From Planctomycetota bacterium (lineage in GTDB: Bacteria; Planctomycetota; PLA2; JAEUHO01): a stretch of 33,158 nt of DNA. The translations under genes and the position numbers were made by a program. Positions within the stretch are counted from its first letter, which is position 1. Each line of letters opens with the position of its first letter. The stretch lies in contig JAJDEM010000092.1 of assembly GCA_029259795.1 (NCBI GenBank), forward strand, positions 1-33,158. Reading direction: 5' to 3'. Below are positions 1-26,345 of the stretch, in pieces. Under the pieces are notes generated by a model. That model had not been told where the DNA came from, ran no database searches, and worked only from the letters and a program-made list of their open reading frames with translations.

Positions 1-1562
1 CAGAAGCCGTCCTCCTCGGCGTCGAGAACCACCTCCAGCGGCGTGGTGCCGCCGAGCTTCTCGTCGATGGAGAGCATGCCCTGATGGATCGGGCTGTCCT
101 CCTTGAAGTAGTCCATGAAACGGTTCTCGACGTTGAGTCGCGTCAGCCCGAACCCAAAGACCACCGCCAGAACGCAGGTGATCGACAGCACCTTGTTGCG
201 GTGGTTCATCGACCAGACGCCCACCCGGGTGAAGGGCGAGGGCCGATCGATCGCGGCCAGGTGAACCGCAGGCTGCGGTCCCGTTCCCAGCAGCATGTTG
301 AGAGCCGGGAAGAGCAGGAAACTCAGCGCATAGGCGACGGCAATGCCGAGCACCATGATGAGTGCGAAGTCCATGACCGGACGAATCTGGCTGACGTACA
401 GGGAGCCGAAGCCGACCATCGTGGTCAGGGCTGTGTAGAGACACGGGCGTGCCATGTCCGACGCGCTGTGCGCCATGAGCCTTCCGTTGCTCCAGTCCGG
501 GTTGCCCGCATGGAGCTCGCGAAAGCGGACCACGATGTGGATGAGCATCGCCATGGCGACGATCAGCAGCAGCGAGACGAAGTTCGACGTCACGATGGTC
601 GCCGGCCAGTCGAGCAGGCCAAGGAGACCGATGATCGCGAGCACCGTCAGGCCGCAGATGATCGTCGGAAGCACGGTCCACTTCAGGGAGAGAAACAGGA
701 CGAACAGCATCAACAGGGCGAGAGCCAAGACGGAGAAGCCGAAGACCAACAAGTCGCTCTCGATGTAGTCGACGATGTCGACGTTGATCATCGGCACACC
801 GCCGATGTGGATCTCGCCGAGCTCTTCGTAGGCTGCGACGACCTCGCGAATCGACTCGATCTGCTGGCGCCTGGACACAGACCAGCGGGCGTCAGCGCGG
901 CTGAGCTCCGCCCCCAGCTCCACCAACCGGCCCTTCTGAGCGGGCGTCAGCTTGTTGGCATCCCGGAGGTCCCAGAGTTGGTAGCGCTCTTCTTCAAGCT
1001 CGGCGACCCCGGACTGTTGCTCGAGTGTGACCTGGAGCGCCGTCGTCTTGCCGTCGCGGCTCAGAAGCGCGTCGGCGAACAGGGGGCTCCTTGTGAGCTC
1101 GGCTCGGGCCAAGGCTCGATCGACGGCCGGGTCCGTGATGGTCACGAACCCGGTACCCAGGGCCGCGAGTCCGCGGTTGGGACTCTCGAACAGGGGCAAG
1201 TCCACAAGGCTGGTGACGCTGGCGACACCCTCAAGCGCCGCCAGGTCGTGGTCCAGTCGCGCGATCGCCGCCAGGGTCTCGGGCGCCAACAGGTCCTCGC
1301 CGGGGGTGACCGCTACGAAGACGCTGTCGTCGGCGCCGAAGGTTCTCCGGGTGTTGTCATAGAAGCGGAGGTCGGGGTCGTTCTCGAGAACGATGGCGTC
1401 GGAGCTGGCATCGACCCGGAAGTCCCGCGCGTACCAGGCAAGCAGGAGCACGGGAGCGAGAAGCACCAGCAGCGCGGTCCTTGGACGCTGGATCAGGGTC
1501 CTGAGGAGAGCGTTGCTCCTGCGACCCTCAGGATTTTGACCAGCCTCGTGGTCGGCGTGCAT
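1..1562 (-). CDS. RND superfamily / MMPL-type transporter, C-terminus truncated by window edge
   Basis: Not in the ORF track because no stop lies inside the window. The minus frame from ATG at 1562 reads MHADHEAGQNPEGRRSNALLRTLIQRPRTALLVLLAPVLLLAWYARDFRVDASSDAIVLENDPDLRFYDNTRRTFGADDSVFVAVTP..., and in the same frame further on MNHRNKVLSITCVLAVVFGFGLTRLNVENRFMDYFKEDSPIHQG. These are the duplicated TM plus 'ENRFMDYF' signatures of MMPL/RND proteins. Confidence 0.85.
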   Translation of the reverse strand, partial: MHADHEAGQNPEGRRSNALLRTLIQRPRTALLVLLAPVLLLAWYARDFRVDASSDAIVLENDPDLRFYDNTRRTFGADDSVFVAVTPGEDLLAPETLAAIARLDHDLAALEGVASVTSLVDLPLFESPNRGLAALGTGFVTITDPAVDRALARAELTRSPLFADALLSRDGKTTALQVTLEQQSGVAELEEERYQLWDLRDANKLTPAQKGRLVELGAELSRADARWSVSRRQQIESIREVVAAYEELGEIHIGGVPMINVDIVDYIESDLLVFGFSVLALALLMLFVLFLSLKWTVLPTIICGLTVLAIIGLLGLLDWPATIVTSNFVSLLLIVAMAMLIHIVVRFRELHAGNPDWSNGRLMAHSASDMARPCLYTALTTMVGFGSLYVSQIRPVMDFALIMVLGIAVAYALSFLLFPALNMLLGTGPQPAVHLAAIDRPSPFTRVGVWSMNHRNKVLSITCVLAVVFGFGLTRLNVENRFMDYFKEDSPIHQGMLSIDEKLGGTTPLEVVLDAEEDGF

Positions 1563-1674
1563 CGTGGCCTCCCGCAGCAGGATGATACGGGGCCCGGCAC
1601 GAGACCGCGCGATTCCGGACCTTCGGGTCGCGACGTGTGGGTGCTGCCGCCAGCTACGCCAACGCGTCGATGAC

Positions 1675-4071
1675 TCATTGCGGAACGGTGAGGGTCTTCT
1701 CGGGCTCGCCGGTCGTCACGGTGCCGACCTCGAGCCAGCGGTAGCTGAGCTTCCCTTGCGCATCCAGGTCCCGAACGTTTGCGAAGACCTTCCAAGTTCC
1801 GGGAGGGGCGGCCTTCCAGCTCACGGGATGGGTCCTGAATTGGTGCTTGTAGCTCGGTCCCCCACTGACCCGCTCGACGCGCACGCCCGAAGCGGAGTTG
1901 CCGCGTGTGCCGAAGACCACGCGAAACTGCAAGCGCGGCGTCGTGTCGATGCGGATCTCAAGATCATGCGTGCCCGCAGCAACGTCGTCGGTCACGACCG
2001 TGCGTCCCGAGCGGCCGGGCAGCCGAGCCGAGACGCGGTAGCTGCGGGACGGCTTCAGCGTGGTGATCCGGAAGGTCCCGTCCGGATACGACGCTGCACC
2101 GTGGAGCACCTCCCGTCTCGGCGCAGGCCCCAGGACCGACACAAGCACGGCGGCCAGCGGGGCCCCCGTCTCGTCCACGACCCGGCCAGCGATCGTAGCC
2201 CCCTTGAGCAGCTGGACCGTGCGCTCCTTGGGACCGGCTTCGATGCCCGTGGCGCCGCCGAGCGCGTGATGGCCCACGACCTCAAGGTCATAGACCCCGG
2301 TCATGAGCTGCACGAGCCAGAACCTGCCCTGCGCGTCCGTGTCAGCGAACGCGCTGCCGTAGGCGGGTCCCTGGTGGCTCGGCGCGCTCCGCATCTGCGC
2401 GACAACCCGGCGCTTGGGGACCGGCGCACCGGCGGCATCCACCACGCGCCCGTGGATCAAGGAGCCGGGCAGGCGCAGGATCACGCCCGCCGTCCCCGCG
2501 GCGATCCCCGTTGCGATGGGACTACTTCGAGCCCAGGCCCGGTGTGCGCTCTGTCCAGGCGTCGTGAAGCTGAACTTGTGGGCGCCCGCCGCAAGGCCTC
2601 CGATCCGGAAGGAGCCATCCGCGGCGGTGACGGCGCTGCCCCACGACCCGCCGTCCATACCCAGGGCGTGAACACCGAAGCCCGGCAGGGGTATGTCAGC
2701 GAGGCAGACGAGGCGCCCGGCAATCGCGAGCGTCCCGGCAGGCGGCGGGGCCGGTGGCCTCTTGGAGCGCTCGGCCCTCACGCGCGCGCGCTTCGCCTCA
2801 CGGACGGCGCGCGCCTTGGCCCTGGCTGCCTTGACGCGGCCGTCCCAGCGGTCCAGGGCGTGGAGGCACTCCCGGCGCACGGCGTAGGACTCCGTCGTCT
2901 CGTGCGCCAGCCGCTCGAGCAACGGAGCGAGTTCCGCGCCGAAGCTTCGCTCGAGCGCTGCAAGGACGTCCTTGCTGAACTTGACGCCGATGCCCGTCTT
3001 GCCGCGCACGACGCTGATTTGAATGGAGGCCATCTTGGCGCCACTTGCGCGTGCGCCGGGCTCTGGTGCCTCGAGAAGCCGGCGAACGATCGGTACCGCG
3101 GCTGTGCCGGTCGCGAGCAGGCCCGGCGACACGATCGGCGTTCCCGGCGCGCCGAGCGTGCGAGCCATCTGCTCGGCGATCTCAAAGGCCTCGGGGGTTT
3201 CGTCCTCAAGAAGCATCGACTGCAGGAACCAGAACGCACGGCGCTCCGTCGGGCGCATGGTGAGCCAGCGCTTCCACGTTGACGCCACTTCCGCCAGGGC
3301 CAGCGGAGCGAAGGCTTCACGATGCGCTGCACGGTGCACTGCACGCTCTCCCGCGCTCAGCTGCTCGGCCCACGCGGCGAAAACGGCGGTGCGCCGCTCT
3401 CCCTCGAGCCGAGGGAGGAGTGCCTTGGCTCCCCGAAGCCAGTCCCTCGTAGCGGGTAGGACTACAAGTAGCCCGGCAACGACCGCGCAGCGCGACGGAT
3501 CCTCTTGAGCGGCAGCGCATCCGACGAGCTCGCTGACGAGCAGCGAGGGCTGGAGGACGCGATCCATGGCGCCGTGGCGCAGCGTCGAGCGCGCGCGGTC
3601 GTACTCACCGCGCCGGAGTCCGGCCACGATGTCCGCCAGCGTGACGAACCGGAATAGAAACGCCCGCAAGGGCTTGAACTCAGCCCGCGCTCCGATGCGC
3701 ACGCGGGCACGCTGCACATCACCGAGGCCGACGGTGACGTCCCAGTTGCTGTGTAGGGATGGGTGCATCGCGCCAGGCCAGACCTTGAAGAAGCGCGAGG
3801 CGGCCACGGCGCGCCTGCCCTGCTCCAGCTCCGCCGGCGTCAATCGAAAGGTCAGCACGAGACTCGGCGCGACCTTGGCGCCTGCCGCCTGCGTGACGCG
3901 GGTGCTGCCGTCAGGATCGATTTCGATGCGTGTCCATCCGGAGCGCTGCATGTCCACGGTGCTGGTCGCCGAGATGCGCAGCGGCTTCGGCTTGTCCTCA
4001 CCCTGCGCCGAACGTCCAGGCGTCGCCGCGACGAGCAGCAGGAGCACGGACAAACGCAGCACACACGACAT
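1675..4071 (-). CDS. Exported protein with carboxypeptidase-regulatory-like (beta-sandwich) repeats
   Basis: 798 aa. N-terminal signal peptide MSCVLRLSVLLLLVAATPGRSAQG. Repeats of the type 'GRVVDAAGAPVPKRRVVAQ...DAQGRFWLVQLMTGVYDLEV' and 'GRVVDETGAPLAAVLVSV...PDGTFRITTLKPSRSYRVSA'. Confidence 0.8.
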   Translation of the reverse strand: MSCVLRLSVLLLLVAATPGRSAQGEDKPKPLRISATSTVDMQRSGWTRIEIDPDGSTRVTQAAGAKVAPSLVLTFRLTPAELEQGRRAVAASRFFKVWPGAMHPSLHSNWDVTVGLGDVQRARVRIGARAEFKPLRAFLFRFVTLADIVAGLRRGEYDRARSTLRHGAMDRVLQPSLLVSELVGCAAAQEDPSRCAVVAGLLVVLPATRDWLRGAKALLPRLEGERRTAVFAAWAEQLSAGERAVHRAAHREAFAPLALAEVASTWKRWLTMRPTERRAFWFLQSMLLEDETPEAFEIAEQMARTLGAPGTPIVSPGLLATGTAAVPIVRRLLEAPEPGARASGAKMASIQISVVRGKTGIGVKFSKDVLAALERSFGAELAPLLERLAHETTESYAVRRECLHALDRWDGRVKAARAKARAVREAKRARVRAERSKRPPAPPPAGTLAIAGRLVCLADIPLPGFGVHALGMDGGSWGSAVTAADGSFRIGGLAAGAHKFSFTTPGQSAHRAWARSSPIATGIAAGTAGVILRLPGSLIHGRVVDAAGAPVPKRRVVAQMRSAPSHQGPAYGSAFADTDAQGRFWLVQLMTGVYDLEVVGHHALGGATGIEAGPKERTVQLLKGATIAGRVVDETGAPLAAVLVSVLGPAPRREVLHGAASYPDGTFRITTLKPSRSYRVSARLPGRSGRTVVTDDVAAGTHDLEIRIDTTPRLQFRVVFGTRGNSASGVRVERVSGGPSYKHQFRTHPVSWKAAPPGTWKVFANVRDLDAQGKLSYRWLEVGTVTTGEPEKTLTVPQ

Positions 4072-4227
4072 GGGTCCAGCGTAACGGCACGGGAGGCACC
4101 GCCGGCCGGTCCCGTGTTCGCGCCTCCACAGCCGAGGTCCGAGGCCTGCCCGAGCCCCCTGCGATTGTGCTGCCCCGCCGGAGCCCGTACCCTGAGGTCG
4201 CTAAGCGCTCGAACGGGGAGGTGGGGA

Positions 4228-5355
4228 ATGCGAGGTTCAGTCGTTCTTTTGGCTGGGGTGCTGGGCGTCGGTCTGCTCATGGGGCTGATCGGCACCGCCC
4301 GTGCGGGCGATCCCGATCTCGCGAAGTTCCTTCTGCAGCATGGCCGGACGGCGTTGTTGAAGGGCGACTACGACGACGCGCTCACCAAGCTTCGCAAGGC
4401 GCGGGTCGAAGACCCCACGTTGATCGAGGCGACGTACGTGATCGCCCTCGTCCTTGAACGCAAGAAGGAGCCCACCAAGGCCGTCTTGGAGTACAGAGCG
4501 TTCCAACTCGGTGCGGAGGCCGCACAGCGCGACGCGAAGCTCAGCAAGAAGATGTCCAAGTTCCTCAAGAAGGCCATGGGGCGCCTCAAGGCCCTCGATG
4601 CGGGCAACACTGAGATCAACAAGGCGCAGGCAGCGTTCGCAACGGGCCTTTGCATCTCGGCCCGGGCCATGGCCTCCACCGATGCGGGCCTCGCCATTCG
4701 TATGCTGAAGGTCGCCCGTGCCGCGGCGCCTGACCACAACGATGCCCGCAACATGCTGGACGAGATGGCCAGTGGGTTCATTCCTCTCGCATCGGTCTTC
4801 GACAGCGTCCACGACTGGCAGGACGTCATCAAGAGTTCCATGCTGGGCAAGAATCCCGGCTGGACCTACCAGGGCACCAAGATTGCCGTAACGACCCTCG
4901 GCGGCTCCCTCATTCGTCCGCCGGGGGGCTACGAGAGCGGTCCCACTTACGCACTCACAGCAGACCTCGCACTGAAGGACAAGCCATCTCTCCAGAAGAC
5001 CATGACTGCCGGGCTGCTCTTTGGCATCGCCAAGGACGAAGGCTTCGCAGCGATCATCCTCCAGGACGAAGGGAAGAAGGATCGGCTCGCTCTATCCGCG
5101 ATGTCCCTGAGTCCGCCCAAGGACCGTCCGCTGAAGATCGTCAACCTCCCCAAGTGGACCGGGGGCACGACCCATCGGGTGTCCGTCCTGGTGGAAGGAA
5201 AACGCATCCGTCTGTTCTTCGACAACGAGTTGGCGATCGACCACAAGGTGTCGGGTCGAGACGACCTCGGCGGGACCATCGGCGTCTCCTTCCAAAACAC
5301 CACGCTCGACATCAAGCAGTTTCGCGTCGGCAAGGTCGTGGGAGGTGCCAAGTGA
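4228..5355 (+). CDS. Exported TPR protein with C-terminal LamG/DUF1080-like domain
   Basis: ORF trimmed to ATG 4228, preceded by GGGGAGGTGGGG. Signal peptide MRGSVVLLAGVLGVGLLMGLIGTARAG, TPR-like helices, then a C-terminal 'HRVSVLVEGKRIRLFFDNELAIDHKV...GTIGVSFQNTTLDIKQFRV'. Confidence 0.75.
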   Translation: MRGSVVLLAGVLGVGLLMGLIGTARAGDPDLAKFLLQHGRTALLKGDYDDALTKLRKARVEDPTLIEATYVIALVLERKKEPTKAVLEYRAFQLGAEAAQRDAKLSKKMSKFLKKAMGRLKALDAGNTEINKAQAAFATGLCISARAMASTDAGLAIRMLKVARAAAPDHNDARNMLDEMASGFIPLASVFDSVHDWQDVIKSSMLGKNPGWTYQGTKIAVTTLGGSLIRPPGGYESGPTYALTADLALKDKPSLQKTMTAGLLFGIAKDEGFAAIILQDEGKKDRLALSAMSLSPPKDRPLKIVNLPKWTGGTTHRVSVLVEGKRIRLFFDNELAIDHKVSGRDDLGGTIGVSFQNTTLDIKQFRVGKVVGGAK

Positions 5356-16721: not shown

Positions 16722-19373
16722 GTGACACGCAGTCTTGAATCCCTCTTTGAACGCTACCGCAGGCGGGGCGAGGTCTCCGCCCTGGCGAAGATCTTCGATC
16801 GCACGGCTCCCGAGCTGCTCAGGATCGCGATGCATCTCGTGCGCGATCCGGCCGTGGCGGAGGATCTCCTTCAGGAGACCTTCGTCGCCGCGATGGAGAG
16901 CGCCGAGCGCTTCGACGCAAGCCAGCGGCTCGTGCCGTGGCTTGCGGGCATCCTGAGCAATCAGGCGCGCCGGCATCATCGCTCCACGGCCAGGCAGCCG
17001 GATCCCACGCGGTTGCACGCGCGGGGCGAAGCCTCAGGCGTCGGTGAGCTGGAAGCAAACGTCGCGCAGGGCATCGATGCCCTGCCGGCGCGCTACCGGC
17101 AGATCGTTCTGCTCAAGCTCGGCTACGGCATGGAGCCCGCCGCGATCGCACACCTGCTTGATGTGCCGCCGGCGACCGTGAGGACACGGCTGCATCGAGG
17201 GCTCGAGCAGCTGCGCGGGCGGTTGCCGGCCGGCTTGGTGCTTGGCGCGCTGCCGCCGGCCGCGGCGCTCCGCGGGCTCGAGGGAATCCGGGAGGCCGTG
17301 GTGAGCCACGCCTCCGCGAGCGCTGTCACGACCACCGTCGTAGCTACGGCGGCCCTGTGGACCTTGGGAGGTGTCGTCGTGACGAAAGCCAACATAGCGG
17401 GCGCGCTCATTCTCTTGGGGCTGGTCCTCGTGGGCGGTGTGTTCACGCTTGGCGACTGGAGCGCCGGGTCGAGCGACACGGGCGAGACGCCTGGCCTGCA
17501 TGAAGCCGACGCAGACGAGGGCCCGGCGCTGCAGGTGCGGGAAGGCGCTGGCAAGGAGCAACCACCGGAGGAAGCCACCGAGCCGGAAGACGCGGAGCCC
17601 ACGGACCGCCATGTCTGGCGAGCGTCGGGTCACGTGGTAGCGGACGAGAAGCGTGTGCCCGGGGCCTACATCGAGGCGTGGATCGAGCGCGGCTCGGTCA
17701 TCATGTCGCTGCCTGCCGGAGCGGCCGATGCCGCTGGGCGCTACACCCTCGATCTCAAAGTGATCAAGGCGTGGTCAGACCTCGAGCGCGCCTCGGCAAC
17801 CTTGATGGTGCGTGCACGGGCGCCGGGCTACCGGCCTGGTCAACCGACGCGGTTCCCGTTGGTCGAGCACGCAGACATCCACGCGCCCGAGGGCGATCTG
17901 GAGCTCGAGCCTGGATTCTCGATCGAGGGCCGGGTGGTTGACGCCCGGGGAGAGCCGGTGGCGCGGGCCGGGGTCTCACTCCACCGCGTGCCGCACGACG
18001 GTGCGGACTGGTACGCCTACACAGACACCGACGGGCACTACGCCGTCGGCACCGAGGACGCGGGCACCTACGCCGTGGCCGTGCGGTCGAGCCAGGGCAC
18101 GGGACGCTCCGAGGCACGCGCCATCGCCCTACGAGAGAGCGTCACCCTTCCCGACGTGGTCCTCTCGGAAGGCCTCTTCATCCGGGGACGTGTGGTCTCG
18201 GCCGACGGCACCCCCCTGCCCGGGGTCGACCTCTTTGCGAATGCGCTCCCCACCGCCGACGGTACGCAGCCGCCCCGGGAGGCCGGCAACCATCAGCTGC
18301 GCGCGCGCACCGACGCCGACGGCGGGTTCCGCTTGTTCAGCCTCTGGGACGGACGCTTCCGCATTCATGTGAGCGGACTGCAGGCGACAACCGACGCCGC
18401 CATGGGTGAGCACGAGGTCCTGATCCGCATCCTCGCCCCTGTCATGGTGACCCGCGTTGTGGGCCCGGAGGGGCGCCCCCTGCCCGGCGCTGGCGTGTCG
18501 CTTCTGGGCTGGCGTGGCAAGCACGTCGACATCGTCGACCAGATCCTGGCCGGCACCGTGACGCTTGAGACGGCCCGCGCGGTCAGCTCGTCGTCGTCCT
18601 ACAGCACGTTGCTCTCGGCCGACGGCACGCTGACCGACTTCGTCACGCCGGGAAGCCGCTGGATCGTCTCTGCACGCGTCGTCGGCGCACCGCCCGCCGA
18701 GACCACCGTCCGCATCGATGGCAGCGAGTCTGTCACGCGCGTGAACCTCGTCATCCATCCGGCCATCCCCCACGGCCGGCTGGATCTACGGGTGCTCAAG
18801 CCGGATGGCTCGCAGCTGAAGGACTTCGAGGTGGAGATCAGCACGCCGCTCGGCATGGGCGTCGGCTCCTCACGCAGCAACGCGAACGGTGAGTTGCTGC
18901 CGGTCGAGTCGGGTTCGCTGCGCTTGCGCGTGCTTCCGTTTGCCAGCACAAACTACATGGCACGCCGCTTCGGACTCGGCACCTTCCTGCTCCCCGGAAC
19001 CGCAGCCGTCGAGGTACCGCCGAACGGGCGTGGCTCAGCGACGGTGAAGCTCCGTGAGGGCGGACGCTTCCGCCTGCGCCTCACCTACCCCGAGGGCGAG
19101 CAGCCCAAGACCGAGAGCCTCCGGATCCGCCTCTTCGAGCGAGGCCACGCCGATGCCCCCTTCCAATACGGCGGCAGATGGGTCTACGACGAGCCCAAGG
19201 GACTGCACGTAACGAGCGTCTTCCACCCGGCGGAGGCTTGCCTCAACGCGAAGCTCTTGGCGCCGGATGACTACCGGCTCGAGGTGCGCACGCAGAAGCA
19301 CGGCACGCATGACCGCACGATTCGCATCCGCGCGGGCGAGGTCATCGACGTCGTGATGGATCTGCGGAAGTAG
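16722..19373 (+). CDS. ECF-type sigma-70 factor fused to a TM helix and extracytoplasmic carboxypeptidase-regulatory-like repeats
   Basis: GTG start with GGAGG upstream. Sigma region 2 'LFERYRRRGEVSALAKIFDRTAPELLRIAMHLVRDPAVAEDLLQETFVAAM' and region 4 'LPARYRQIVLLKLGYGMEPAAIAHLLDVPPATVRTRLHRGLEQLR', then TM 'IAGALILLGLVLVGGVFTL', then repeats such as 'GRVVDARGEPVARAGVSLHRV...DTDGHYAVGTEDAGTYAVAV'. Confidence 0.88.
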   Translation: MTRSLESLFERYRRRGEVSALAKIFDRTAPELLRIAMHLVRDPAVAEDLLQETFVAAMESAERFDASQRLVPWLAGILSNQARRHHRSTARQPDPTRLHARGEASGVGELEANVAQGIDALPARYRQIVLLKLGYGMEPAAIAHLLDVPPATVRTRLHRGLEQLRGRLPAGLVLGALPPAAALRGLEGIREAVVSHASASAVTTTVVATAALWTLGGVVVTKANIAGALILLGLVLVGGVFTLGDWSAGSSDTGETPGLHEADADEGPALQVREGAGKEQPPEEATEPEDAEPTDRHVWRASGHVVADEKRVPGAYIEAWIERGSVIMSLPAGAADAAGRYTLDLKVIKAWSDLERASATLMVRARAPGYRPGQPTRFPLVEHADIHAPEGDLELEPGFSIEGRVVDARGEPVARAGVSLHRVPHDGADWYAYTDTDGHYAVGTEDAGTYAVAVRSSQGTGRSEARAIALRESVTLPDVVLSEGLFIRGRVVSADGTPLPGVDLFANALPTADGTQPPREAGNHQLRARTDADGGFRLFSLWDGRFRIHVSGLQATTDAAMGEHEVLIRILAPVMVTRVVGPEGRPLPGAGVSLLGWRGKHVDIVDQILAGTVTLETARAVSSSSSYSTLLSADGTLTDFVTPGSRWIVSARVVGAPPAETTVRIDGSESVTRVNLVIHPAIPHGRLDLRVLKPDGSQLKDFEVEISTPLGMGVGSSRSNANGELLPVESGSLRLRVLPFASTNYMARRFGLGTFLLPGTAAVEVPPNGRGSATVKLREGGRFRLRLTYPEGEQPKTESLRIRLFERGHADAPFQYGGRWVYDEPKGLHVTSVFHPAEACLNAKLLAPDDYRLEVRTQKHGTHDRTIRIRAGEVIDVVMDLRK

Positions 19374-19486
19374 CGGCTGCTGCGGTGAGGGGTGATGGTG
19401 AAGCTGGTCCACGCCCAAAAATCCGGGCCTGCGCTTGCACCACGGCGTCCCTTTGCGCCATGATCGACGCACTGGGAGGGTTCACT

Positions 19487-21229
19487 ATGAATAGAGCCAT
19501 CTGGATTCTTTTTGTCTTGTTGATCGGCACGGCGACGGCCGTCGCCAAGTCAGGCGCCACGTATGGCATCAAGGGCGACGCGCCGTGCGCGGACGTCGAC
19601 CCTGCCGTCGATGGCGCGTCGAGCTTCCCCGGGGAGTGGAGCGACGCACTCGCGATGCCCGATGGGTTCACGGACCCGTTCACCGGCGCGTCGCCCGCCG
19701 GCTACTTCTACTACCAGAAGCGCATCGACTGGATGGCTACGAGCGCCGCCGGAAACAGCGACACCTACACGGGCTCGACGGCCTTCATCGCCCACGACAT
19801 CTACGGAGGTGCACTGGGCGCGTTCGCCTTCTTCCGCATCAACAACCCGTTCGACTGGAACTACGTCAAGGTCGAGCGCCAGGACGGCTCCATAACCGAG
19901 TGTTGGAACTTCGGCGGCTTTGTTGCAACGCCCACGCCGCCGCACGGTGGCGGGAACGACCTGAACGAGATGGATGATGGGCTGTGGATTACCGCCGCCG
20001 GGCCGCTGGCCACCTCCGTACTGATTCCCGAAGGACCGGGCGCGGACCTGATCGTCGACGTCGGCTTCATCGTGCGCAAGGACGAGGATCCGTCCACAGA
20101 CAGGCACTGGCTGCCGGGCATGGACGAACCCGGCGATCCGGGCTGGGACTGGGACATGTGGTACGGCTGCTTTGCGCGGGCCGGCTTCAACGCGTCCTTC
20201 TCGATCAATGCGGACGATGCTTCACCGGACGCCGCACTCCACACGGACCCGAACGAAGTCTACGAGTGGTGCTTCCACGAGTGGGCCGAAGGCGGGCCGC
20301 CGCTCAACTGCACACAGTGGTGCTTCGAGTGGATTGACCCGCCCAAGCGCCTCGTCGTGTACACCGCCGCCAACTGGTTTATTCACTGGGGTCCGCCGCC
20401 CGTGCCGTCCACGCCGACGCCTGTTCTCGTGCTGCTTGGCAGCCTGCTCGCGCTCGGGGGCTACAGCATCTTCCGTCGGCGGCGGCGCACGACCGTGCTC
20501 GTGACAGCGCTGGCGCTGCTCGCGCTCGCCATTCCCGCGGCCGGCTGCGGGGGCAGTGGTGGCGGCCCGCACAAGAACCCGCCCCCCTTCCGCATGACGA
20601 CCGTTGTGCCGCCCAATGGCTACGACGGGCATCCGTATCCTGTGCCCGGAGGGCTTCCCGCCGTCAACATCGGCGGGATCCAGGGCGGCACACCGCCCTT
20701 CTCGTTCCAACTGATCGGCGGGGCGCTCCCCCCCAACGTGATCCTCTCGCCCATCGGACAGATCCACTCGAACCCGCCTGGCACGCCCATTCCCGCTGGG
20801 AGCGCAGGCAACTACGACTTCCTCATGCGCATCACCGACGCCGCCGGGGACTCGATCCAGTCGGAGAGTTCGCTGCGCATCGAGGAGCAGGTAACGCCGT
20901 TCCCCCCCGGACCGCCCATCCCGATCGAGCTGGTGCAGCTCGATCTCGTAAGCGTCTCGCCGATCGACCTGCTGATGGCGCCGATCAATACGGATATGGC
21001 AGGTGTCATCAAGGTGCGCGGCGGGGACCCGAACTTCCCGTACACCTTCCAGGAGTTTCCGCCAGGGCAGCTTGCCGCGCCCCCCTTCAACGGCAACTTC
21101 ACCCTGAGTCCCGGCGGCGTCCTACGGGGCCAGAGCCCGGTGCCGTTTGGTCCGCAGAACTTGTTCATCGATGTGACCAACGTCGGGCCGCCGACGCCGA
21201 TCGTCATCCGGGTCCAAACCACGCCGTGA
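19487..21229 (+). CDS. Exported protein with mid-protein CTERM-like sorting signal followed by lipobox and Ig-like (He_PIG-type) region
   Basis: ORF trimmed to ATG 19487 with GGGAGG upstream; signal peptide MNRAIWILFVLLIGTATAVA. Internal 'VPSTPTPVLVLLGSLLALGGYSIFRRRRRTTVLVTALALLALAIPAAGCGGSGGG', then 'GGTPPFSFQLIGGALPPNVILSPIGQI...AGNYDFLMRITDAAGDS'. Confidence 0.75.
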   Translation: MNRAIWILFVLLIGTATAVAKSGATYGIKGDAPCADVDPAVDGASSFPGEWSDALAMPDGFTDPFTGASPAGYFYYQKRIDWMATSAAGNSDTYTGSTAFIAHDIYGGALGAFAFFRINNPFDWNYVKVERQDGSITECWNFGGFVATPTPPHGGGNDLNEMDDGLWITAAGPLATSVLIPEGPGADLIVDVGFIVRKDEDPSTDRHWLPGMDEPGDPGWDWDMWYGCFARAGFNASFSINADDASPDAALHTDPNEVYEWCFHEWAEGGPPLNCTQWCFEWIDPPKRLVVYTAANWFIHWGPPPVPSTPTPVLVLLGSLLALGGYSIFRRRRRTTVLVTALALLALAIPAAGCGGSGGGPHKNPPPFRMTTVVPPNGYDGHPYPVPGGLPAVNIGGIQGGTPPFSFQLIGGALPPNVILSPIGQIHSNPPGTPIPAGSAGNYDFLMRITDAAGDSIQSESSLRIEEQVTPFPPGPPIPIELVQLDLVSVSPIDLLMAPINTDMAGVIKVRGGDPNFPYTFQEFPPGQLAAPPFNGNFTLSPGGVLRGQSPVPFGPQNLFIDVTNVGPPTPIVIRVQTTP

Positions 21230-21747
21230 GCCCGGAACAGCGGGCGCCCCCCCCGGGACGCCGACTCGCCCTGCGCTTCGGGCTCGCACTGCCGCTCCTG
21301 GGCGGCGGCCTCATCGCGCTGTTTGCCTACGCCCCAGCGCTACAGTCCGTGCGCGAAGGGATCGTGCATGGGACCGCCGCGACCGCAGGCGGCCTGCTTC
21401 CGCTCTCGGGTTGGGACGTCGAACGCAGGGGACACACACTCCACGCTCCGGGTGACCGAGCTGTCGAGGTTGTGAAGGACTGCGATGGGCTGCCCGTGAT
21501 GCTTCTCTTTTTCGCGGCCGTACTCGTCACCCCGACCGCCTGGCGACGCAAGATCGTGTTTGCCGGCATCGGGCTTGGGCTGCTCTTTCTTGTCAACCAG
21601 GTGCGCCTCGGGCATCTGCTCTACTTGAGCAGTGGATCTCCCGGGAGCTTCCGAGCCGCGCATGAGACCTGGTGGCCTGCCGGGCTGCTGCTCTCCGCAG
21701 GCGGCCTCTATCTCCTCTGGGCTGCACGCCAGGTGCCCCGCGCATGA
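21226..21747 (+). CDS. xrtH: Exosortase family protein (XrtH-like)
   Basis: GTG start overlaps the previous stop (GTGA). Multi-TM protein with ordered exosortase residues: Cys in 'VVKDCDGLPVMLLFFAAVL', Arg in 'LFLVNQVRLGHLLYL', His in 'SFRAAHETWWPAGLLL'. The subfamily call (H) is tentative. Confidence 0.75.
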   Translation: MSPEQRAPPPGRRLALRFGLALPLLGGGLIALFAYAPALQSVREGIVHGTAATAGGLLPLSGWDVERRGHTLHAPGDRAVEVVKDCDGLPVMLLFFAAVLVTPTAWRRKIVFAGIGLGLLFLVNQVRLGHLLYLSSGSPGSFRAAHETWWPAGLLLSAGGLYLLWAARQVPRA

Positions 21748-22223
21748 GGCGCGCACTCCCCTGGATCTTGCCGCTGGTCGTGGCCGCGCTGGTCGCTCTC
21801 GCCCAACACGCCACCTACCCGGCGTTCCTGGCGCATGCCACCGAGATCACACGCGACCTTGTCCCGATGGACACGCCGCCAAGCATCGTTCAGGTGAGCG
21901 GCGACCGGCTGCGTGTGCTTGGCGCCGCCCAGCCCAGTTTCGTTCACGTACCCGCCATCGGCTGGAACCTGCCCGTGCTCGTGTGTCTCTGGGGGTGGAT
22001 CGTGGGCGGGCGCCGCCTCGCGCTGCTCGCTGCTGCCCTGCTCCTGGTGATCGCGCACGTCGTCGTTGCCGATCTCGCCATCCGGCGTGGGCTCGGCGAG
22101 CTCGTCGGTTGGCCCCATGCCATCTACCGCGCGTGGTACATCTGGATTGCGCCGCTCCTACCCATAGTGTGCGTAGCCCTCGGCAGATTCGCCGGCACGA
22201 CCCCGCAGGAGCAGGCTCCGTGA
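21744..22223 (+). CDS. Multi-TM membrane protein, possibly exosortase-H-associated membrane protein
   Basis: ATG overlaps the exosortase stop (ATGA). MRRALPWILPLVVAALVALAQHATYPAFLAHATEITRDLVPMDTPPSIV..., four predicted hydrophobic helices. Identity inferred mainly from context. Confidence 0.6.
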   Translation: MRRALPWILPLVVAALVALAQHATYPAFLAHATEITRDLVPMDTPPSIVQVSGDRLRVLGAAQPSFVHVPAIGWNLPVLVCLWGWIVGGRRLALLAAALLLVIAHVVVADLAIRRGLGELVGWPHAIYRAWYIWIAPLLPIVCVALGRFAGTTPQEQAP

Positions 22224-22723
22224 CGCGCTTTCGAACCATCTTCCTGCTCGCACTGGTGCCCCTGCTCACCGGATGTGGGGATGATCGCGAGCCGCGCCGC
22301 GACCCCACGGTGGCCGGAATCTATGTCCTCGACAAGGAAGCCATGCGCGGGCCGTGGCTCGACGCCTACGACGCGCTTGTCGACCGGCGGCTCGCCGGCC
22401 TACCGACCGCGGCACGGCGCGCGAAGGACCGGTCGGCTGCCGCGGCGGCCAAGACGAAGTTCCGCGGCCAGTTCGAGGCGCTGAACGTCACCCTGGTCCT
22501 CGGGGCCGACGGATCCTGGACACTGAACGGTGCCGCACTCGAGGGACGCATCACTCGACGCGGGACCTGGACCCTCAAGGAACAACAGCTCACTCTGGTT
22601 GCCGAACCACCCTCCGGTACGCAGGCTGGTGGTTCCGTCACGCCTGCGGTGTTCCAGGACGGAGTCATCTCGATGCGGCCGGAGCCGCACCTTCCCGAGG
22701 CCATGATCTTCCGACGCCGGTAG
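22220..22723 (+). CDS. Small lipoprotein, function unknown
   Basis: GTG overlaps the preceding TGA (GTGA). MTRFRTIFLLALVPLLTGCGDDREPRRDPTVAGIYVLDKEAM... (lipobox LLTGC). Confidence 0.65.
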   Translation: MTRFRTIFLLALVPLLTGCGDDREPRRDPTVAGIYVLDKEAMRGPWLDAYDALVDRRLAGLPTAARRAKDRSAAAAAKTKFRGQFEALNVTLVLGADGSWTLNGAALEGRITRRGTWTLKEQQLTLVAEPPSGTQAGGSVTPAVFQDGVISMRPEPHLPEAMIFRRR

Positions 22724-22730
22724 AGGCGCA

Positions 22731-25700
22731 TTACCTCAGCACGATACCCTCCGCACCGGCTTCGGCCTCGACGGCGGTGAGCTCCTTGCCTTGCATGTCC
22801 ATCACGTGCAGGAGGTAGCGGCCCGGAGGCAGGCCGCGGAGGTGGAAGGCGCCGTCTTGCTTGGGGTAGGTCTGCTTGAAGAAGCCGTGGCTTACGGACT
22901 CGGCGCGGATGGTGATCAAGCGCGTGCTCCTCTTGCGCAGGGCGGGGTCGATCGAGCCCTTGATGCTGCGGCCTTCGACGAACGTCAGCTCGAGCGGATC
23001 GCCGCTCGTCTTGACGTTCTCGACCAGCACGTAGCGGTCATCCTTGCGCCCGTAGAGGTAGAGGGTGACGGTGCCCGCCGCAGGCAGGCGGTTGAGCAGG
23101 AAGCTGCCGTCGCTCTCGACGGGGCCGCGCATGCCGTGGGGCTGCCCGGCGGTGGTCCAGGCCCACTGGAACCCTACGAGACCCTCGGCCGCGACGCTGC
23201 CCTTGCGGGTGCGGGAGGTCTGGAGCCGTAGCGTCAGTCCGAGCGTAGGCACCAGGACACCGTCGCGCGTGAGCGGATCCTCGGTCTTCGCTTTCGGAAA
23301 GGCCGTCACCGTCACGTTGGCGCCGGTCGGGAACGGTCCCACGCGGAACGCGCCTTGGCCGTCGGCCGTGGCCTGCACCCCCCCCGCCGTTTCACCCTTG
23401 GCGAACGCGGACAGCATGTGAGCTGCGGCCGGCGAGCCGTCGGGCCTGAGCAAGGTGCCCTCGATGAACCCACCCACCTTGAGATGCAAGACGAGATCTT
23501 CGCGACCGGGCCGGACGTCGCGTTCACGCGCAAGCATCAGGTCACTGCGTCCGATGTCGCGCTCCCAGGGCCTCGCGCGAACGGTGTAGATGGCGCCTTG
23601 GGTCAAACCAGCGAAGCGGAAGCGGCCATCCTTGCCAGAGCGGGCGTTGACCCACTTGGCAGTACTTCGGTCGCCGGGCATCGCGGACATCTCGACGTTC
23701 TCGATGCCCTTGCCGTCCGGGCCCAGCAGCTGGCCGGCGATGACCGCACCGCGCGTGTAGGAAAGGGTGAGGTCGGTATCATCCGTGGTTGCCGACACTT
23801 CGCGCGGGCCGAGGTACTCCGCCGACAACACAAGCTTGAGGCGATGCCCGCCCGGGGTCAGCCCCTCGAGGCGGAACGCGCCACTCGCGTCGGAGTTCGT
23901 CCGATGGCCCTCGACTTGACCGCGGCGGCCGCGCCGGGTGTCGATCCAGACCCGCACGTCAGGGATGCCCTTGCCGTCGTCGTCGACCACGCGACCCGCG
24001 ATGACGCCGCCGGCTCCGAGTTGGAGTGTGAACGGACCCTTGTCGGCCGACTTGCCGGTGAGGCTGAACGGCGCGTGCATGATCCGGCGCCCCTCGCGGT
24101 CGCGGGCGTCGTTCACCTCGAAGGAAAGCGACGAGCCGCCGACCTGGGCTTCGAAGGCTCCACGCAGGATGGCGCCTGAGGCGCCCCGCCCGCCCTCGAC
24201 CTTCACGCGCACGATGCCCGAGTCGACCCGCGTGCCATCAGGCGCCAGTACCGTGCCCGTGATGGCAAGACGCTTGGCTGCAGGCGTCCGGCGCGGCCAC
24301 GGGCTGTCGCCGGACGCCGGGATGACGGCGTTGATCACGATCGCCGCCGGCTCGTTCGGGGGCTCAAGCGGCACCTTCGCGCTGCTGCCCACCGTCCGCC
24401 AGCGCCGGTCCACCCGCGCCATGGCGTTGACCTGGTACGTCGCGGGCGCGAGCGCGTCGAACTCGAAGGCTCCGTGCTCGTCGGTCATGCCGATGGCGAC
24501 GGTCCCCGCGCCTTCCGCATCGAGCCGAACGGTCAGTCGCGGGAGCGGTTGTCCCCGGGCATCGACGACGCGGCCCCGCAGCGTGCCCGGCCCCTTGAGG
24601 CGCAGGGTGAGGGCGACGGGCTTGTCGAAGTCCGAGACGACGACGGCCTCGCTGCACGACGCTTCGGTGTGGGCGAGGATCACCCAGTGGGCCTCTGCCG
24701 GCCCAAGCCCCGGATGCTCGAAGCGTCCCTCCGCGTCGGTTACCGCAACGGGCTCCAGGTCACCCGGGCTGGGAATCGTCACCGGCTCGGGCTGCCAGCT
24801 GCGTCCGCCGCGGCGGGGCTTCTGATGGCGCCAGCGCACCTGGGCCCCCACCGCCGGACTGCCATCGGGCGCAAGCACGACACCACGCAGAGGCATGCCC
24901 CGCTGGATCGTGAAGTCACGCTCGCTCTCGGAGCCCGCGGCCTCGACGCGCAGCTGGTAGTGCTCGTTCGGCCCACCGACGCGATGCCAGCCGGAGCTGA
25001 AGCTGCCGCCGCCCGCGCGGATCGTGGGGCCCTCCGGGTCGTAGTAGCCCCGGGCCCTCACGTAGAGTTCGTAGTCGCCGGGGGTGAGGCCCAGCAGGGT
25101 GTAGCTGCCGTCTGCATCGGTCAGCGCGTGCAAGCGATTGTGCGCAGAGCCACCATAGGCACCGACCCGCGCACCGACGACGACGGCGCCCTCGTTGTCG
25201 AGCACGCGACCGCGAAGAACCGAGCCCCGATACAGCGTGAGCTCGAGGTGAGTTGCCTCGCCAGCGCGCACGCTGCGTCCGAGGCTTCGCCAGCTGCGAG
25301 GCAGCCAACCGGCACCGCGCGCGCTGAGACGCACGAGCGCGCCCGGAGGAACCCCCGTCACCTCGAACGCCCCGCTTGTGTCGGTCGTCGCTTGGAACAC
25401 GTAGTTCGCACGCCCCGCTGTCTCGGTGCGCACGTCAAGCAGGACCGTCGCGCCATCGATCGCCACGCCATCCCCGTCGGCCAAGCGGCCGGTGACCCGC
25501 CCTGCGTTGGCTCCGCCGAGCCGAATCACGACCTCGCCGGTCTCGGGGACCTCAACCTCCAACCCGCGCAGCGCCAGGCGGCCGGCAACGTGCACGTCAA
25601 AGCGCAGCAATCCTGTCGGTGCGCTGGGAATAGAGAAGCGGCCGCCTTCGTCGGTTGCGAGCGGACCGAAGCCCCACGCGGTCTGCGACATGGGCCGGAC

Positions 25701-26345
25701 ATCGTCACCGGCAGCATACGCACGCACGATGGCGGCCACGGGACGGTCGGCCGCGTCGACCACGCGGCAAGCAAGGGCTACGCCCTCGAGCACCCGCAGG
25801 ACGATCGCGTGGCTGCGAAGACGTCCCCAGTTCGCGAGGAGCGCGCGCGTCGAGCGCCGGGGTGCCTCGACGACGGCCTCCACCTCGTAGTGCGGCTGGT
25901 TTGGGGCAACGAAGCTGCCGGATCCCGTTTCGATGCCGTCCAAGGCGAAGCGACCACGGGCGTCGGTTACGCCGCGCGCGACGACTCGCTTGTTGGTTGA
26001 CGGCGGCAGGATGCGATCGAACGGATCGTTCGCACCGAAGCGCTGGCTTCGCGAGGCCACCACCGCAACGCCAACGACCGGCGCGTCTGCCGCATCGAGT
26101 ACCACACCGAAGACGCGTCCGCTACCCCGGACCGGCGCCGGCTCGACCACCTTGGGCGGGGCTTCGCCGCGGGTCTCGAGCTGCGGGCCACCCTCATCGG
26201 GAGCCTTGCTCGATTCGTCGCCTGGCTCTCGGACGGGCTGCTCCCCGTGGTCCCCCGCGAGCCACCACCCGACGGCGCAGATCACGGCGACCAGCGCCAG
26301 GGCACCCAAGGCTCGTCCACCGCTCCCACGACTTCGCATGCGCAC
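22731..26345 (-). CDS. Large membrane-anchored protein of many carboxypeptidase-regulatory-like repeats
   Basis: 1204 aa. N-terminal TM 'GALALVAVICAVGWWLAG', then many 'GRVVDxxGxP(L/I)xxxxVxxx...xxGxFxxxGLxPGxYxLxV' repeats. Confidence 0.85.
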   Translation of the reverse strand: MRMRSRGSGGRALGALALVAVICAVGWWLAGDHGEQPVREPGDESSKAPDEGGPQLETRGEAPPKVVEPAPVRGSGRVFGVVLDAADAPVVGVAVVASRSQRFGANDPFDRILPPSTNKRVVARGVTDARGRFALDGIETGSGSFVAPNQPHYEVEAVVEAPRRSTRALLANWGRLRSHAIVLRVLEGVALACRVVDAADRPVAAIVRAYAAGDDVRPMSQTAWGFGPLATDEGGRFSIPSAPTGLLRFDVHVAGRLALRGLEVEVPETGEVVIRLGGANAGRVTGRLADGDGVAIDGATVLLDVRTETAGRANYVFQATTDTSGAFEVTGVPPGALVRLSARGAGWLPRSWRSLGRSVRAGEATHLELTLYRGSVLRGRVLDNEGAVVVGARVGAYGGSAHNRLHALTDADGSYTLLGLTPGDYELYVRARGYYDPEGPTIRAGGGSFSSGWHRVGGPNEHYQLRVEAAGSESERDFTIQRGMPLRGVVLAPDGSPAVGAQVRWRHQKPRRGGRSWQPEPVTIPSPGDLEPVAVTDAEGRFEHPGLGPAEAHWVILAHTEASCSEAVVVSDFDKPVALTLRLKGPGTLRGRVVDARGQPLPRLTVRLDAEGAGTVAIGMTDEHGAFEFDALAPATYQVNAMARVDRRWRTVGSSAKVPLEPPNEPAAIVINAVIPASGDSPWPRRTPAAKRLAITGTVLAPDGTRVDSGIVRVKVEGGRGASGAILRGAFEAQVGGSSLSFEVNDARDREGRRIMHAPFSLTGKSADKGPFTLQLGAGGVIAGRVVDDDGKGIPDVRVWIDTRRGRRGQVEGHRTNSDASGAFRLEGLTPGGHRLKLVLSAEYLGPREVSATTDDTDLTLSYTRGAVIAGQLLGPDGKGIENVEMSAMPGDRSTAKWVNARSGKDGRFRFAGLTQGAIYTVRARPWERDIGRSDLMLARERDVRPGREDLVLHLKVGGFIEGTLLRPDGSPAAAHMLSAFAKGETAGGVQATADGQGAFRVGPFPTGANVTVTAFPKAKTEDPLTRDGVLVPTLGLTLRLQTSRTRKGSVAAEGLVGFQWAWTTAGQPHGMRGPVESDGSFLLNRLPAAGTVTLYLYGRKDDRYVLVENVKTSGDPLELTFVEGRSIKGSIDPALRKRSTRLITIRAESVSHGFFKQTYPKQDGAFHLRGLPPGRYLLHVMDMQGKELTAVEAEAGAEGIVLR

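Follow-up and report, generated by a model that had tools for sequence, protein, structure and literature searches.

Three overlapping genes of a Planctomycetota bacterium, encoding a fused secreted precursor, an exosortase and a polytopic membrane protein, form a real and coherent unit within the 33,158-nucleotide stretch of DNA analysed here (the window). We consider it somewhat probable that they constitute a dedicated mid-protein sorting unit, in which one precursor is subject both to an exosortase cut and to lipoprotein maturation, and this precursor probably gives rise to two separately anchored surface proteins. The evidence comes from the gene structure, an architecture conserved between two genomes, the catalytic residues of the enzyme, the co-occurrence of fusion and exosortase, and the conservation of the gene overlaps.

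Genomic organisation of the unit

The fusion gene (gene 1; 19487-21229, plus strand) encodes 580 residues in one continuous frame and is preceded by a likely ribosome-binding site, GGGAGG (19474-19479, plus strand), with a 7-nt spacer to the ATG at 19487. It is followed on the same strand by the genes for a 173-residue exosortase (gene 2; 21226-21747), a 159-residue membrane protein (gene 3; 21744-22223) and a small lipoprotein with an LLTGC lipobox (gene 4; 22220-22723). A sequence-only reading had linked these four open reading frames through three four-nucleotide start/stop overlaps, and direct reading of the sequence bears them out: GTGA at 21226-21229 joins genes 1 and 2, ATGA at 21744-21747 joins genes 2 and 3, and GTGA at 22220-22223 joins genes 3 and 4. 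Identical GTGA and ATGA junctions occur in genome G011, from another genus of the same family, within a block composed of fusion, exosortase and membrane protein. Because these junctions recur exactly next to a fusion protein (L011, 3685-5352, likewise a continuous frame) that is 50% identical to that of the window, the first two overlaps are not a product of chance. Of the proposed four-gene order, genes 1 to 3 are thus kept in G011, but gene 4 is not, as it has no homologue there at E≤1e-3. Since its distant relatives, all lipoproteins, are found in genomes that lack this exosortase, gene 4 is placed outside the conserved unit.

On the minus strand, convergent with the operon, lies a gene (22731-26345) whose 1204-residue exported product contains about nine repeats of the carboxypeptidase regulatory-like type. 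On the other side of the operon, a single frame at 16722-19373 encodes 883 residues, in which an ECF sigma factor (regions 2 and 4) is fused to a long part bearing carboxypeptidase regulatory-like domains; this product is possibly a sigma factor that spans the membrane, with part of it outside the cytoplasm.

Architecture of the fusion precursor

The gene 1 product starts with a Sec-type signal peptide (aa 1-24; 19487-19558), with its hydrophobic peak at aa 3-20 and an AVA end, which is predicted to be cleaved. The secreted domain that follows (aa 25-300; 19559-20386) belongs to no named family; a PDB search by sequence found no relative of it, and its AlphaFold model, built without an alignment, reached a pLDDT of 34, too low for a fold search. 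Downstream, an exosortase-signal-like motif, VPSTPTP (aa 306-312; 20402-20422; PVPALPWP in G011), is followed by transmembrane helix 1 (hydropathy 2.13) and an RRRRR cluster (aa 313-334; 20423-20488), which together make up a tripartite sorting signal. Transmembrane helix 2 (20489-20548; hydropathy 2.35) comes next and ends in PAAG-Cys354, resembling a lipoprotein signal (LLVGC in G011). The remaining 220 residues or so (20549-21226) comprise a Gly-rich linker and an Ig-like part of the He_PIG type, a family matched with 44.9 bits by the G011 homologue (cut-off 24) and with 14 bits in the window. All of these features lie on the plus strand.

The sorting signal VPxTPxP-TM-RRRRR therefore occupies aa 306-334 of 580, 246 residues away from the C-terminus, and it is likewise located mid-protein in the G011 fusion. 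Neither this position nor the lipoprotein-like signal with some 220 residues behind it had been remarked upon in the sequence-only reading. The two fusions share the order domain, VPxxPxP, transmembrane helix, Arg-rich cluster, transmembrane helix, GC-Gly-rich segment and Ig-like part, with identities of 58% in the N-terminal domain, 42% in the hairpin formed by the two helices, 42% in the C-terminal part and 50% overall.

The C-terminal half displays the features of a lipoprotein, namely a positively charged n-region (RRRRR), a hydrophobic helix and a lipobox cysteine (AAGC), and its sequence suggests that it matures as such, with lipidation at Cys354. The lipobox of the window, IPAAGC, is less canonical than the LLVGC of G011; Ala occupies position -3 in 5 of 19 local lipoproteins. 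GTG codons at aa 337 and 339 (340 and 344 in G011) were considered as internal starts for this half, which is less likely because the Arg n-region would be lost and no clear ribosome-binding site is present. The N-terminal domain occurs alone or in tandem, without the hairpin, in secreted proteins of genomes G114 and G158, and the C-terminal part resembles He_PIG-bearing lipoproteins of relatives, so that the precursor has the appearance of two secreted proteins fused through their sorting signals.

The exosortase and its probable membrane partner

The membership of gene 2 in the exosortase/archaeosortase superfamily, expected from the sequence-only reading, is confirmed by TIGR04178 (47 bits, cut-off 23) and PF09721 (44 bits, cut-off 25.7). 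The assignment to the XrtH type fared less well: the enzyme is XrtH-like, but against Exosortase H (TIGR04177, cut-off 86) it scores 50.8 bits, and its G011 counterpart 41.9. XrtX and XrtH are the nearest named subtypes, and neither is reached, the score against Exosortase X (NF046081, cut-off 170) being 52.2 bits. Cys86 (codon 21481-21483), Arg127 (21604-21606) and His146 (21661-21663), all on the plus strand and in the order noted before, are invariant in 11 homologues from the phylum; the Cys-His-Arg triad of sortase-like enzymes is reviewed in PMC9263693. The enzyme is a putative transpeptidase. In the tree, the window and G011 exosortases are sisters (support 99/96), the G011 branch being long. 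Searches of genome contigs returned no relative with the window exosortase and only three Planctomycetota/MAG loci with a typical XrtH as query, tblastn against plasmids gave no match for either an XrtH or the fusion as query, and a PDB search with the exosortase sequence gave one match, at chance level.

Gene 3 shares 29% identity with its G011 counterpart, which has the same position and the same ATGA overlap, and in XrtH loci of the phylum (G019, G050 and G072) a coupled membrane protein stands in its place. From this position and overlap, gene 3 is the probable membrane partner of the enzyme. No match at E≤1 was obtained to the XrtH-associated membrane protein NF041730 (cut-off 35); a profile comparison with the local XrtH partners (hhalign, P 0.001-0.0025, probability 12-18%) yields a weak similarity that is at most a hint of common descent. 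The AlphaFold model of gene 3, also built without an alignment, had a pLDDT of 60, too low for a fold search. Of the two accessory factors proposed earlier, the membrane protein thus holds the position of an XrtH partner, but the small lipoprotein lacks conservation.

Elsewhere in the phylum, G019 (L018, L012, L019) and G072 (L157, L158) have two or three distinct exosortases of the XrtH type per genome, each followed by its own membrane partner, and the partners in L160 and L162 bear a C-terminal SEC-C-like zinc motif (PCPCGSGKKxKxCC).

Distribution and range of substrates

The full-length fusion was found in only two of 392 genomes of the phylum, that of the window and G011. Of the 12 genomes of the family, two have the fusion together with this exosortase and ten have neither, a co-occurrence with p=0.015 if the two were independent, in a sample that is small and made up of incomplete genomes. 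Unrelated, longer exosortases of the EpsH type are present in G006. Within the window genome (4.29 Mb, 89% complete), gene 2 is the only exosortase detected.

The candidate substrate does not conform to the classic C-terminal IPTL-CTERM type that had been assumed, given that its signal is mid-protein and that the cut-off of TIGR04174 (20.5) is reached nowhere in the genome. Matches in the same genome below the cut-offs of NF033207 and TIGR04174 correspond to kinases, NuoJ/BatA-like proteins and others, and include no sorting substrates. The idea of a single dedicated substrate is in line with the lack of any other IPTL-CTERM protein above cut-off, but is weakened by a VWA protein of the same genome with a similar tail. 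This protein (L152, G000 contig C147, 54-3356) ends in a Pro-rich motif, transmembrane helix, basic loop, transmembrane helix, GCG and a short tail, and the same tail architecture is present in two tandem VWA proteins of G005 (L154, contig C40, 251-3574 and 3584-6820); the Pro-rich motifs of the three are VPVLPPNP, VPSKPVGAPPFP and VPMPRLPPLP. A profile of the hairpin is matched in full length and in order only by the two fusions and these three large VWA proteins, all five of which are rows of the profile itself. Its weaker matches are mostly ordinary lipoprotein signals, as are most matches of NF058595 across the phylum.

An internal segment of transmembrane helix, basic residues, transmembrane helix and (G/P)GC also separates the two parts of ResB-CcsA fusions (L153, G000 contig C74, 3-3038, minus strand; L156, G003, 1444-4620, minus strand), where the internal lipobox-like site is kept in two species of the genus.

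Proposed mechanism and alternative readings

Established knowledge of CTERM systems and of lipoproteins, applied to these genes, would lead to the following course of events. Gene 1 would be translated into one precursor and exported through its N-terminal signal peptide, after which the hairpin would sit in the inner membrane, with helix 1 entering from the outside, the RRRRR loop on the cytoplasmic face and helix 2 leading back from inside to outside. The exosortase, probably assisted by gene 3 as its partner in the membrane, would cut at or near VPxTPxP, just before helix 1, by means of Cys86, Arg127 and His146, and would transfer the N-terminal domain to an acceptor at the surface by way of an acyl intermediate on the cysteine, as has been suggested for archaeosortase A (ArtA). 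At Cys354, Lgt and LspA would modify and cut the chain, turning the Ig-like C-terminal half into a lipoprotein, and the hairpin would be discarded as a double signal. The Arg cluster would be used twice, with helix 1 as part of the exosortase signal and with helix 2 as the n-region of the lipoprotein. As both cuts would fall on the same precursor, one translation event would supply two anchored proteins in equal amounts. The full description, that of a polyprotein with back-to-back exosortase and lipoprotein signals sharing one Arg cluster, yielding anchored products in a 1:1 ratio and served by an exosortase-partner pair outside XrtH and XrtX, is put forward tentatively, as something short of an even prospect.

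Only two examples of the fusion are known, and the hairpin with GCG also ends the VWA proteins of G005, a 92%-complete genome in which no exosortase was detected. It is mainly these proteins that cast doubt on the processing of such hairpins by an exosortase, and they suggest that the hairpin may serve as an anchor by itself. The hairpin would then be stable, keeping both halves on one chain, perhaps with an acylated Cys354, which we regard as unlikely though well worth weighing; equally unlikely is the accompanying notion that the role of the neighbouring exosortase is confined to trimming or modifying the protein, or lies elsewhere. A stable anchor would agree with the best sub-threshold family match, NF058595 (31 of 37 bits), which is described as a 'putative C-terminal anchoring domain', as well as with the tails of the VWA proteins in G000 and G005, but would leave aside the adjacency of the exosortase, its strict co-occurrence and the overlaps kept with the fusion and not with the VWA proteins. 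Moreover, what follows the hairpin in the fusion is no short tail but some 220 residues with Ig-like domains. The VWA protein on C147 bears as well on whether the enzyme serves several precursors, a rather doubtful extension of mid-protein sorting and not an exclusive rival to it. Its tail, VPVLPPNP-TM-basic-TM-GCG, has the same architecture, is encoded in the same genome and scores 88 bits against the tail profile, of which it is itself one of five rows; yet its gene is unlinked to the exosortase, and its G005 relatives exist where no exosortase was detected.

That an ordinary IPTL-CTERM protein is accompanied by an XrtH enzyme and two accessory factors, as first proposed, appears very improbable. 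It would account for the XrtH-like enzyme, the VPxTPxP-TM-Arg signal and a membrane protein located where a partner is usually found, but it is already disfavoured by the distance of the signal from the C-terminus in the window and its mid-protein location in G011, by scores below the IPTL-CTERM and XrtH cut-offs, and by the lack of conservation of the fourth gene. The resemblance of the two halves to separate secreted proteins might come from two neighbours merged, either by the recent loss of a stop codon or by faulty assembly, an explanation that becomes exceedingly improbable in view of the same continuous frame in an independent genome at 50% identity.

Relation to known systems and significance

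The enzyme family is already known, and the idea of mid-protein sorting is named in NCBIfam and has an archaeal precedent. By its name, NF033207, 'midcut-by-XrtH protein', couples an XrtH-type enzyme with a signal in the middle of a protein, and gene 1 displays such a signal beside an exosortase of XrtH type; the likeness comes from the name of the model and from the matched stretch (model positions 28-81 on aa 300-352). Gene 1 scores 15.2 bits against a cut-off of 45, which no protein in the 392 genomes of the phylum exceeds. NF058595, 'lipo-invert', shares with the middle of gene 1 (aa 291-364) the order transmembrane helix, basic loop, transmembrane helix, GC and Gly-rich segment. However, the scores (31.1 bits in the window, 28.4 in G011) are below the cut-off of 37, and the fusion differs in having a large Ig-like part behind the segment and a gene coupled to that of an exosortase. 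Loci with Exosortase H (TIGR04177) and NF041730 likewise combine a small exosortase with a coupled membrane protein directly after it, but the enzymes of the present unit score 51 (window) and 42 (G011) of 86 bits, and gene 3 has no NF041730 match.

The bacterial chemistry of exosortases has been little tested, in part because precursors and mature products are difficult to distinguish.

The archaeal precedent is HVO_0405 of Haloferax volcanii, a domain fusion and ArtA substrate that, like gene 1, contains a central cleavage site for a sortase-family enzyme, at which it was shown to be cut; unlike gene 1, it is archaeal and is described as a strain-specific fusion, and the available text of that study describes no bacterial lipobox after the site (PMC7157517). 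In the same text, ArtA also processes the S-layer glycoprotein, unlike the dedicated enzyme proposed here, and the authors propose that a lipid amine resolves a Cys-linked intermediate (PMC7157517). Because fusion and enzyme are strictly paired, the double signal is shared and the exosortase lies outside XrtH and XrtX, the unit can be seen as an uncommon form of an established sorting system. A dedicated enzyme-precursor pair with a mid-protein cut would produce a large size shift, as HVO_0405 gave for ArtA, and the three genes fit a cassette of roughly 2.7 kb. The unit further raises the questions of whether a lipoprotein signal can function at an internal position, and in which order two anchoring pathways would operate on one chain.
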